This document shows, piece after piece, positions 30,549-38,612 of a stretch of DNA of 39,155 nucleotides. The DNA lies in assembly GCA_021802585.1 (NCBI GenBank), contig JAJZRQ010000017.1, positions 1 to 39,155 on the forward strand, given 5' to 3'. Source of the stretch: Chloroflexota bacterium. GTDB lineage: Bacteria; Chloroflexota; Limnocylindria; Limnocylindrales; CSP1-4. A model generated the notes under the pieces. That model had not been told where the DNA came from. It saw only the letters and a program-made list of their open reading frames with translations, and made no database searches. The stretch's first letter is position 1; every line of letters starts with the position of its first letter. The position numbers and the translations under genes are program-made.

Positions 30549-30871
30549 CCGAGCACCTCGCCGAGCGCGGCGAGCGTGCGGCGGCAGGCCTCGTCGTCGC
30601 GCTCGTAGTAGCGCCGCCGGGTGTCGGCCCCGAAGCGGCTCGCCCGCACGAGGCCCGCGTCGCGGAGGCGCGCGAGGTGGTTGCTGACGTTGTTCTCGCG
30701 GGCGCCGAGCGCGGCGGCCATCTCGCAGACGCAGACCGGGCCGTCACGGAGCAATCGGAGGATCGCGGCGCGGATCGGGTCGGCGAGGAGCGCGGCGACG
30801 GCGGACGCCGCCTCCACGTCCGGCGCCGGCAGACTCATCCGCAGGTCGAGGACAGGCAGCTCACGCAGCAT
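30545..30871 (-). CDS. ArsR-family metalloid-responsive repressor
   Basis: 108-aa winged-helix repressor heading the permease operon. The ATG at 30871 has GGAGG six bases upstream and is better than an earlier ATG at 30898. LADPIRAAILRLLRDGPVCVCEMAAALGARENNVSNHLARLRDAGLV contains CVC in the position of the ELCVCDL metalloid site of classic ArsR. The wing is RRYYERDDEACRRT with a third Cys. It likely releases DNA on binding As(III), Sb(III) or an organoarsenical. Upstream are two direct TGTGA copies (minus strand, about 30905-30926), which may be part of its operator. Confidence 0.88.
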   Translation of the reverse strand: MLRELPVLDLRMSLPAPDVEAASAVAALLADPIRAAILRLLRDGPVCVCEMAAALGARENNVSNHLARLRDAGLVRASRFGADTRRRYYERDDEACRRTLAALGEVLG

Positions 30872-31002
30872 GGCAGGCCTCCATGGGAATGGGAGCATCG
30901 TTCATCACAGCCGGTAATGTCACATCAAGCCGTGGGTTCTCCACAGGGCCGTCGGTCACGAGTCTGGCGGGCCTGACGGCGAGGAAGGGGCGAGCCCCGT
31001 GG

Positions 31003-31042
31003 CCGCGCGCCCGCCGCCGCGCGCCCGCCGCCGCGCGCCGCC
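31003..31042. repeat. 14-bp GC tandem repeat, about 2.7 copies
   Basis: The unit CCGCGCGCCCGCCG occurs at 31003-31016 and 31017-31030, with a diverged third partial copy. It lies in the 287-base gap between the ArsR gene and the zinc-ribbon gene. The rest of that gap holds the ArsR upstream region and a TACGCT -10-like box at 31079-31084. Confidence 0.6.
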
Positions 31043-31158
31043 AGCCGGCGGGCACTATCCGTCCGCCGCGCGGCGCGCTACGCTCACCGGCGCGCGGCGT
31101 GCCGGCGAGCTGACGGGACCAGGCGGGGGGCCGGCCGGCGCGGCAGTTGGGGCGCCAC

Positions 31159-31650
31159 GTGGACGCGAACGCGATCGTCTGCCCCGGATGCGGGGCGGAG
31201 AACCCGGCCGGGAAGCGGTTCTGCGGCGACTGCGGCGCGCAGCTCGACGCCGCCCCGGCGGCGGGCACCGGCGCGAGCGCGGCTCCCACCCCCGCGCGCC
31301 CCGGTGTCCCGACGACGCGGGCAGCGCGCCTCCGCCGCATCGGGGACGTGGGCCGCGAGGATCGAGGGGCCCTCCTCGCGCTCCTCGGGCTCGAGGGCGA
31401 CATCCCGGCCGACCAGCTCTTCGCGGCCTGGCGGACCTCCTTCGAGCGGCTCGCGGTGAGCGGCACGGTGGTCCTCGTGCTCGAGGACTTCCACTTCGCC
31501 GACTCCGGGCTCCTCGGCTTCGTCGACCACCTCCTCGAGTGGAGCCGGGGCGCGCAGCTCGACGCCGCGCTCGCAGGCGGCGTGCCCGCCCCGGCGCCGG
31601 CCGGCGCAGCGGCCCGGCCGGCGCCGGGCGGGGCCGTGCCGTCGCGATGA
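31159..31650 (+). pseudogene. zinc-ribbon / AAA-ATPase relic
   Basis: 163-residue frame from a GTG. The first 30 residues are a zinc ribbon (VCPGCGAENPAGKRFCGDCGAQL), exactly the N-terminus of many large adenylate-cyclase/AAA-ATPase regulators. After an Ala/Pro linker comes LLALLGLEGDIPADQLFAAWRTSFERLA and VVLVLEDFHFADSGLLGFVDHLLEWSR, which matches the Walker B region (normally LEDLHWAD) of the same proteins. The cyclase domain, the Walker A loop and the long C-terminal repeat region are all missing. It thus looks like an internally deleted remnant kept in frame, or a new small adaptor made from it. It overlaps the next gene by ATGA. Confidence 0.65.
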
Positions 31651-31892
31651 GCGCGCCGCGGCGTCCCGGCAGTCCCGGCCGCCCGCTCCGCTCCCGCGCC
31701 GCCGGGTTCGCCCGCGCCATCGTCGCGGGCACGCTGCTCCTCGGCAGCGTCGGCTCGTGCGAGCTGCCGAAGCCGAAGATCCCCTCGATCGGCGACGTCT
31801 GCGCCGCGCCGGCGGAGGCGGATGGGCCCGGCCCGCGGCGTGCCCTCCCGGCGGCGTCCGCGACCTGCGCCGCGCCCGCCCGGCAGGCTTGA
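31647..31892 (+). CDS. small putative lipoprotein, 81 aa
   Basis: Begins ATG overlapping the preceding stop (ATGA). An Arg-rich start, hydrophobic GFARAIVAGTLLLGSVGSC and a near-lipobox VGSC suggest export and lipid attachment. The remainder, ELPKPKIPSIGDVCAAPAEADG and so on, is short with two more Cys and is Ala/Pro-rich. No family is recognised. It is followed after ten bases by the methyltransferase gene. It may be real, or part of the decayed neighbourhood of the zinc-ribbon relic. Confidence 0.45.
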   Translation: MSAPRRPGSPGRPLRSRAAGFARAIVAGTLLLGSVGSCELPKPKIPSIGDVCAAPAEADGPGPRRALPAASATCAAPARQA

Positions 31893-31901
31893 GCCCACGG
31901 C

Positions 31902-32615
31902 GTGTCCCGCGCGTTCGACACCGCGTACGCCGACGGCGGGGTCCCCACCTGGGACCTCGGGCGGCCGCAGCCGGCCGTCGCCCGCCTCGTCGCGGAGGGG
32001 GCATTCGGCGCGCCGGGGACGTCCGTCCTCGACGCCGGATGCGGCACGGGGGAGCACGCCCTCCTCCTCGCGAGCCGCGGGCACCGCGTCGTCGGCGTCG
32101 ATCTCGCCGGGGAGGCGATCCGGCGGGCCCGGGCGAAGGCGGCCGGGCCGGCCGGGGGATCCGCACCACCTGCGGCGGGCCCTTCCTCCGCAGGGCGGGG
32201 TGCCGGGGAGGGCAGCCCCCCGGAGGGCGGCCCCCCGGCGGTGCGCGGCACGCCGGTGCCTCGTCCCGCCCCGACGTTCCTCGTGCGCGACGCTCTCGAC
32301 CTCGCGGGGCTCGGCCCGTTCGACGCGGCTCTCGACGTCGGCCTCTTCCACGTCCTCGACGACGCGGAGCGGCCCCGCTACGCGGCAAGCCTGGCGGCCG
32401 TCGTCCGGCCGGGCGGCCGCGCGTTCGTCCTCTGCTGGAGCGACCGCAACCCGTTCGGGCGGGGGCCGCGGCGGGTCACGCGGCGCGAGCTCCGGCGGAC
32501 GTTCGGCGCCGCGGCCGGATGGCGGGTCGACCGGATCGACGCGGAGGAGCTGGTGTCACGGCTCCCCGGCGGGCGGGTCGACGCGTGGCTCGCCCGGCTG
32601 ACGCGCCGCCCCTGA
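31902..32615 (+). CDS. class I SAM-dependent methyltransferase
   Basis: 237 aa from a GTG. It has FDTAYADGGVPTWDLGRPQPAVARL, motif I VLDAGCGTGEHALLLASRGHRVVGVDLAGEAIRRARAKA, FDAALDVGLFHVLDD and AVVRPGGRAFVLCWSD. This is the small-molecule methyltransferase type, often seen next to thiopurine- or tellurite-type enzymes. An insertion of about 40 Gly/Pro/Ala residues (AGPAGGSAPPAAGPSSAG onward) interrupts the fold between beta-strands 2 and 3. The last 60 bases overlap the 3' end of the SulP gene on the opposite strand. The substrate is unknown. Confidence 0.82.
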   Translation: MSRAFDTAYADGGVPTWDLGRPQPAVARLVAEGAFGAPGTSVLDAGCGTGEHALLLASRGHRVVGVDLAGEAIRRARAKAAGPAGGSAPPAAGPSSAGRGAGEGSPPEGGPPAVRGTPVPRPAPTFLVRDALDLAGLGPFDAALDVGLFHVLDDAERPRYAASLAAVVRPGGRAFVLCWSDRNPFGRGPRRVTRRELRRTFGAAAGWRVDRIDAEELVSRLPGGRVDAWLARLTRRP

Positions 32616-36864: not shown

Positions 36865-38612
36865 CGCGGCGACCCCGAAGCAGCCGCGGCTCGGGGGCAA
36901 CGGGTTGCGGGGCGCGCTGGCGCGGGCACGAGCGCGCGGGCCGCGTGGCGGAAACCGCCGAGGTGGAGCCCGAGGAGCGCGAGGACGAAGCCGGGGAGCT
37001 CGGCGCGGGCCCCGACGGCAGCGTAGCGCGGCTCCCACCGCGGATCGAACTTGCCCTTGAAGAAGGCCAGGCCGCGGACGTCGTACCAGCGCCGGACGAG
37101 GGCGGCGGCCCGCGCCAGGGCCCGCTCCTCCGGAGACGCCGACGCGTCGTCGAGGCCGGCGAGCGGCGCGAGGCCGAGGGACAGCGCCGAGGCCCCCGCC
37201 GCGCGGAGCCCGGCGGCCGCCGCGGCGATGCAGCCCTCGAGCGCGCCGGGGGTCCCGCCGGCCCGGCGCCGCATGAGGTCGAGCACCCAGCCGCCGTCCG
37301 CGCCGGTCGGGCGGAACGTCGTGAACGCGATCGGGGCCCCGTCGGCGTCGAGGGCGACCGCGATCGCCGTCCGGTCGACGGCGTCGAGATCGAACGCCCC
37401 GACCGTGAACCCCATCGCCGGGCCAGCCGCTTCCGCCCACGCGCGGTCGATCGCGGCAAGGCCGGGGAGGAGCCGCTCCCGCTCGGCCGCCGGGATCCCG
37501 CCCGGGTGGAAGCGGAACGAGACACCGCCCTTCCGGGCGCGGGTGACGGTGTGGCGGAGGTTCGCCCGCCGCGAGCCGGCGAGGTCGAACGTCGCGAGGT
37601 CGATGATCGCCTCCTGGCCGACGCGGAACGGCCGGAAGCCGGCCGTGAGGAGGGCCGCCCGCTGGTCGCCCGACGCCTGGTAGACGGCCGGGACGAGGTC
37701 GCCGGCGCGGCAGGCGCTGGCGAACGCCTCCCACGCCCCGGCGATCGCGGCGGCCGGGCCGGCCGGGTTCCCGAGCGCCACGGCCGTCCGGCCGTACCGT
37801 CCGTACGCGACGACGGCGCCGTCGGGCGTCACGAGGCGCGTCTTGTCCGGCTCGAGCTGGAAGGGGAGGAGGGCGCCGTGGCCGTCCCGGCGGAGGATCG
37901 CCCCGGCCGCCGCGGCCGCTTCCGCGTCCGGCGGGGCGGGCGCCGGCCGGAGGGCGGCGATCGCGAAGAGGGCGAGCGGCATGCGGACCGCGAGGGTCGC
38001 GACCGCGAGGATGCCACCGTGGCCGGTGAGCCAGGCGAGGGCCGGGACGGAGCCGAAGGAGGCGATGCCGGCGAGCGCGCCGGCCGCGGTCCGCAGCCCG
38101 ATCGCCGGGTCGAGGCGCGCGGCCGGGACGGCGAGGGCGAGGACGGCGTCCGTCGCCGCCGCGACGATCCCCAGCGTGGCGAGGGCGAGGAGCCGTCGAC
38201 CCGGTCGTTCGGCGGGCACGACGTACCGCCGCCAGCCGAGGAGGAGGACGCCGAGGAGGACGCCGGCGATCGTCGCCCCGACCGGATGGCGGAGGGCGAG
38301 GGCCTGCGAGAGCGTCGCCGAGCCGAGGAGGAGGACGCCGAGCTCCCACGAGCGGCGCTTCCCGCGCCGGAGGCCGAGCGCGATGGCGACGAGGGTCACC
38401 GCCCCGAGCGCGGCCGCGAGGTCCCCCGGGCCGAGCGCGTCCAGCGGCAGGTCCGCGGCGAGGAGCCGCCCGAGGCGGCTGCCGGGGTTGAGGACGTCGG
38501 AGGCGGCGAGGGCGGCCGTCGCTCCGCCGAACGCGAGCGCGAGCGCCGGGGCAAGGGCGCCGATCCGCGCGATCGGGCCACCAGGCCTGGCGGGTACGGC
38601 GGTCGCGGCCAC
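36861..38612 (-). CDS. DUF2156 / MprF-type aminoacyl-lipid synthase-like
   Basis: 583-aa protein. The N-terminal part (to about residue 225) has six to seven membrane segments. The C-terminal part is a DUF2156 double-GNAT domain as in lysyl-phosphatidylglycerol synthase MprF/LysX: GALLPFQLEPDKTRLVTPDGAVVAYGRYGRTAVALGNP, RPFRVGQEAIIDLATFDLAGSRRANLRHTVTRARKGGVSFRF, WVLDLMRRR and LAFFKGKFDPRWEPRYAAV. The last is the conserved KxKF.P.W.PRY motif. It likely transfers an amino acid from aminoacyl-tRNA to a lipid. The GTG start has AAGGAG upstream. It is coupled to the esterase gene by ATGA. Confidence 0.87.
   Translation of the reverse strand: MAATAVPARPGGPIARIGALAPALALAFGGATAALAASDVLNPGSRLGRLLAADLPLDALGPGDLAAALGAVTLVAIALGLRRGKRRSWELGVLLLGSATLSQALALRHPVGATIAGVLLGVLLLGWRRYVVPAERPGRRLLALATLGIVAAATDAVLALAVPAARLDPAIGLRTAAGALAGIASFGSVPALAWLTGHGGILAVATLAVRMPLALFAIAALRPAPAPPDAEAAAAAGAILRRDGHGALLPFQLEPDKTRLVTPDGAVVAYGRYGRTAVALGNPAGPAAAIAGAWEAFASACRAGDLVPAVYQASGDQRAALLTAGFRPFRVGQEAIIDLATFDLAGSRRANLRHTVTRARKGGVSFRFHPGGIPAAERERLLPGLAAIDRAWAEAAGPAMGFTVGAFDLDAVDRTAIAVALDADGAPIAFTTFRPTGADGGWVLDLMRRRAGGTPGALEGCIAAAAAGLRAAGASALSLGLAPLAGLDDASASPEERALARAAALVRRWYDVRGLAFFKGKFDPRWEPRYAAVGARAELPGFVLALLGLHLGGFRHAARALVPAPARPATRCPRAAAASGSPR

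Follow-up and report, generated by a model that had tools for sequence, protein, structure and literature searches.

Large proteins of about 1200 residues, in which two zinc ribbons are combined with a guanylate/adenylate cyclase domain and an AAA_16 ATPase domain, form a family often represented by several genes per genome in relatives of the environmental bacterium studied here. All three full-length relatives that we scanned carried zinc ribbons, Guanylate_cyc and AAA_16. For the type represented by the same-family proteins L107, L108 and L109, the nearest NCBIfam model is TIGR03903 TOMM_kin_cyc, which scores far below its cut-off (210 versus 705.75 bits). A single four-cysteine ribbon is found in stand-alone zinc-ribbon proteins (Zn_Ribbon_1 / DUF7577), which contain no ATPase fragment. 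Bacterial gene relics, or pseudogenes, that arise via large internal deletions are truncated and lineage-specific and carry indels relative to intact relatives.

The short open frame analyzed in this work (31159–31650, forward strand, 163 residues) has features of each of these groups. With the double zinc ribbon–class III cyclase–AAA_16 proteins L107, L108 and L109 it shares the zinc ribbon and the segment running from TTRA to LLEWSR, and it is 73% identical to L107 over residues 71–134. However, it lacks their second ribbon, cyclase domain, Walker A motif and long C-terminus, its WIEP motif is scrambled and its tail repeats the end of its own zinc ribbon. It contains one four-cysteine ribbon as in the stand-alone proteins, but here the ribbon is fused to a piece of ATPase. 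The bacterial deletion pseudogenes are matched in truncation, lineage specificity and indels; in contrast to many a relic, the short frame shows neither a stop codon nor a net frameshift, which says little at its GC content of 79%. Most likely, we deal with a rather ordinary gene relic and not with a new protein, so far seen in one species. A full-text literature search returned no paper.

The window, i.e., the whole stretch of 39,155 nucleotides under analysis, comprises bases 1–39155 of a 44,045-base contig (C26) from a 2.65-Mb genome (G000) that is assembled in 141 contigs and 95.9% complete. For the short frame a GTG start was assumed; a TTG at 31147 is also possible and would give 167 residues. 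Its zinc ribbon, CPGC...CGDC (residues 8–30, 31180–31248), has kept all four cysteines and aligns with one of the two ribbons of full-length relatives. Zinc-ribbon models match residues 6–30 above the Pfam cut-offs (DUF7577, E 1.1e-7; Zn_Ribbon_1, E 3.9e-6). An Ala/Pro-rich linker follows (31249–31311); where it ends, the alignment shows the short frame to lack the cyclase domain as well as Walker A and the initial part of AAA_16. The frame then continues with an AAA_16 remnant (31312–31554) that extends from TTRA to LLEWSRGA of the full-length relatives and includes the aligned Walker B motif VVLVLED (31468–31488). The best match, to a 1217-residue full-length relative, covers residues 62–134 with 67% identity (E 6.1e-27), and positions 80–156 of the 167 in the Pfam AAA_16 model match residues 62–126 weakly and below cut-off (E 0.024). 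A pattern search found no Walker A (GxxxxGK[ST]) in the short frame, and Guanylate_cyc gave no Pfam match at E≤1. Compared with full-length regulators, the short frame thus has a zinc ribbon but neither the cyclase domain nor a complete AAA_16 with Walker A. Four aligned full-length relatives contain in addition a second zinc ribbon, the N-terminal half of AAA_16 and the whole sequence beyond LLEWSR. By homology, the short frame joins a zinc ribbon to the Walker-B segment of AAA_16, both from cyclase/ATPase proteins of about 1200 residues. An earlier note on this DNA had proposed this junction, with loss of the cyclase domain and Walker A, and the Pfam matches, the match to the relative and the alignments bear it out.

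If translated, the product would consist of a lone zinc ribbon plus a piece of ATPase unable to bind ATP through a P-loop. Although Walker B is present, the product is not expected to hydrolyze ATP by itself since the P-loop is missing. AlphaFold2 models were of low confidence, with a mean pLDDT of 46.8 from the single sequence and 52.6 from a five-sequence alignment. In the latter, blocks within residues 1–30 reached 74–86, the AAA part 48–65 and the tail 34–35, so that the zinc ribbon is the only part of the predicted protein that is modeled with fair confidence.

Within the AAA_16 remnant we found a compensated pair of frameshifts, +1 and then −1, at 31358–31369. The site is crossed by 30 distinct blastn alignments. 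In 29 of them the window is one base short at 31368–31373. Ten alignments start ahead of 31358, and seven of these give the window an additional base at 31358 as well; a single alignment lacks both indels and shows a three-base difference instead. The ten bases between the two indels are read in another frame, which converts the WIEP motif into E-D-R-G. In 15 full-length frames this motif reads WIEP 12 times and WIAP, WIQP and WVEP once each. The pair restores the frame, and the short frame contains no internal stop codon.

The tail (31549–31647, stop codon 31648–31650) duplicates the end of the zinc ribbon together with the linker. Its first 20 bases (31549–31568) are identical to 31234–31253, at the end of the ribbon in the same frame. 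None of 1000 dinucleotide shuffles reached a repeat of even 17 bp; an exact repeat of at least 20 bases is held by six of 387 tiles of the window, and these derive from the short-frame locus and from a 22-bp exact direct repeat at 38234–38343 (copies at 38234 and 38321) only. So long a repeat hence occurs elsewhere in the window too, a point against the relic reading described below. After LLEWSRGA the short frame reads QLDAALAGG..., whereas the relatives continue with P-I-Y/F-V. That the tail repeats the end of the ribbon calls for a second break. At this position the relative L118 has SRGA, and the short shared GGGGCGC could be a crossover point at this second junction.

The earlier note had regarded 163 codons in frame as unusual for simple decay, and this is not sustained by our data. 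In 900 of 2000 dinucleotide shuffles the frame stayed open, and among 1548 stretches of 163 codons sampled from the window, true genes included, 668 were open. Given these shuffles and the high GC content, one expects a frame of such length to be open, and the AAA piece itself carries the +1/−1 pair. The alternatives posed in the note, remnant or new adaptor, thus fared differently: homology and the missing domains speak for a remnant, while the one argument for an adaptor, the open frame, amounts to chance at this base composition. The note had also missed the tail repeat and the frameshift pair. In general, an open frame with two recognizable domains is weak evidence for a gene at 75–80% GC, and relics of this kind can end up in annotations as novel short proteins.

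The arrangement of zinc ribbon and ATPase piece occurred in one of six genus genomes and one of 107 family genomes, in many of which only 34 first-look candidates were scored. Among the matches listed for the 107 family genomes, all others lie in open frames of at least 454 residues. Matches at E≤0.001 were present in 34 of 61 genomes, in some with more than 10 each, where one gene may give two matches, by its ribbon and by its ATPase. Tandem copies also occur: contig G023:C17 contains four matches on the same strand, spaced by about 3.6 kb, and G020:C102 and G030:C85 contain two each. Among 47 distinct ATPase-core hits, 13 have both frame ends inside the locus and measure 1200–1495 residues; no closed frame shorter than 400 residues occurs among the 47. 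A close-relative scan of the species-genome collection, which may omit near genomes, yielded no relatives of the short frame. In its own genome the short protein as query had, besides itself, six matches at E≤10, all within residues 3–54 (ribbon and linker), and no full-length paralogue was among them. An AAA_16 match is present in a 1099-residue frame of the same genome (G000:C24), which is absent among the matches of the short protein at E≤10. The genus mates G002, G004 and G005 each contain several large zinc-ribbon/cyclase/AAA genes, whereas in G000 the query found only the short frame, which suggests that this gene family was lost from the species.

We assign a probability of roughly 70% to the reading that the short frame is a relic of one or more large zinc-ribbon/cyclase/ATPase signaling genes, left after big deletions. 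The source would have been one or two genes of this cytoplasmic signaling family, encoding two zinc ribbons, a class III nucleotidyl cyclase, an AAA_16 ATPase and a long, repeat-like C-terminus. One deletion would have fused the linker behind the zinc ribbon to the central part of the ATPase domain, with loss of the cyclase domain and Walker A. At a second break, located inside LLEWSRGA or directly behind it, the ATPase segment would have been connected to the terminal part of a different zinc ribbon. If two tandem copies collapsed, this order of ribbon, ATPase piece and end of a ribbon could result, and the relic thus perhaps originates from a tandem array. The small indels, including the compensated pair, probably came afterwards, although this sequence of events, like the presumed lack of function, is our reconstruction. 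Two observations are typical for pseudogenes: relatives possess a longer intact homolog, and large deletions occur together with a frameshift pair, albeit a compensated one. On the other side, the AAA core shows no clear decay, four cysteines are kept, no stop codon is present and the frame is restored. The checks proposed earlier hence gave a mixed picture. Full-length homologs were found and the deletion was mapped, and comparison with relatives revealed frameshifts, yet these compensate each other, and the AAA core proved as well kept as in full-length genes, which speaks against plain decay.

For the core (31369–31548, 60 codons), GC3 is 1.00 versus 0.92 ± 0.05 in relatives. It has one change at 22 near-invariant columns, at which 26 relatives have none, nine have one, two have two and one has five. 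Its profile score lies above those of 10 of the 38 relatives, a comparison set that may include different cuts of one gene. Against its eight nearest relatives, dN is 0.14–0.18 and dS 0.52–0.85, and by the ratio of first-and-second to third position differences the core takes place 29 of 39, near the middle of the set. A Ka/Ks analysis on 60 codons against distant relatives merges changes before and after the deletion, and with so few codons and possibly only a short time since then it has little power to reveal relaxed constraint. The absence of clear substitutional decay would thus point to no more than a recent deletion or some remaining constraint, because most of the core's substitution history predates the deletion. 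A codon score trained on six neighboring genes was high in the ribbon (31159–31254; 1.19 bits per codon) and the AAA core (2.01) and low in the linker (31255–31317; −0.05), the junction (0.26) and the tail (0.39), a pattern that fits two inherited blocks whose surroundings are newly formed.

The main rival, which we consider unlikely, is an assembly chimera, in which short reads of a multi-copy, GC-rich gene family were misjoined and the arrangement is absent in the cell. The fragmented assembly, the metagenome-type assemblies of the genus mates, the many gene copies in relatives, the 79% GC of the frame and the 20-bp direct repeat inside the piece are all in line with a misjoin, and so is the location. 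To the left of the short frame lies an arsR–arsP–thioredoxin block that is also found in G005, G004 and G002 (there cut at arsR), and to the right a block of methyltransferase, SulP, NUDIX and esterase genes that is also found in G004. In the genus mates G004 and G005 the two blocks are on different contigs and non-adjacent in the stretches read, and the short frame hence sits at either a rearrangement point or an assembly join. However, two single-base indels, an insertion and a deletion spaced by 10 bp, with the missing piece upstream, are hard to obtain by joining two contigs, and a search of the own genome with this query revealed no further AAA piece that could supply such a join. A full-length version at the same place, which the earlier note had named as a sign of an assembly deletion, was not among the flanks searched in the genus contigs, which are short and give incomplete coverage. 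The methyltransferase contig of G002 carries a 1108-residue cyclase/AAA-like frame on the same strand, with one more frame in between; we rejected it as a same-place counterpart, as it belongs to a different branch and the zinc ribbon (residues 8–34) is the sole match.

Quite improbable, in our estimate, is a young functional mini-protein, in which the zinc ribbon and the Walker-B helix–strand piece would bind partners of the cyclase/AAA regulators and so serve as an adaptor or decoy. In its favor are the four kept cysteines, an AAA core conserved as in functional genes, the frameshift pair that restores the frame and the stop codon that overlaps the ATG of the next frame in an ATGA. Yet the open frame is expected by chance, the close-relative scan and the genus and family genomes offer no second short form, and with this query the own genome gave no full-length member to adapt to. 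Moreover, a scan for the sigma-70 consensus found no promoter-like or terminator-like site in 30800–32000, and modeling with fair confidence is confined to the ribbon; a working adaptor is without positive support. Least probable is a very young mini-gene from the collapse of a cyclase array, kept in frame by the compensating indel and translated as a zinc-ribbon adaptor or decoy that outlived the loss of its full-length relatives from this genome. If the short form were expressed, it would present a case of a new protein from the collapse of a tandem signaling-gene array.

The frame that starts at the ATGA overlap (31647–31892, forward strand) encodes 81 residues and contains, as read by eye, a lipobox-like stretch, LLLGSVGSC. 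An old conserved zinc-ribbon operon of this frame and the short frame was rejected, as the best match beyond its own locus in 61 genomes had an E of 5.3e-4 at 38% identity. The methyltransferase further downstream (31902–32615, forward strand) has about 40 extra GC-rich residues (83–124) compared with its genus mates, whose alignments split into residues 5–82 and 125–235. Its frame end overlaps that of the SulP transporter on the reverse strand by 60 bases (32556–32615), and in G004 the methyltransferase and SulP are separated by two frames that resemble cys genes, cysE and cysK as judged by eye.
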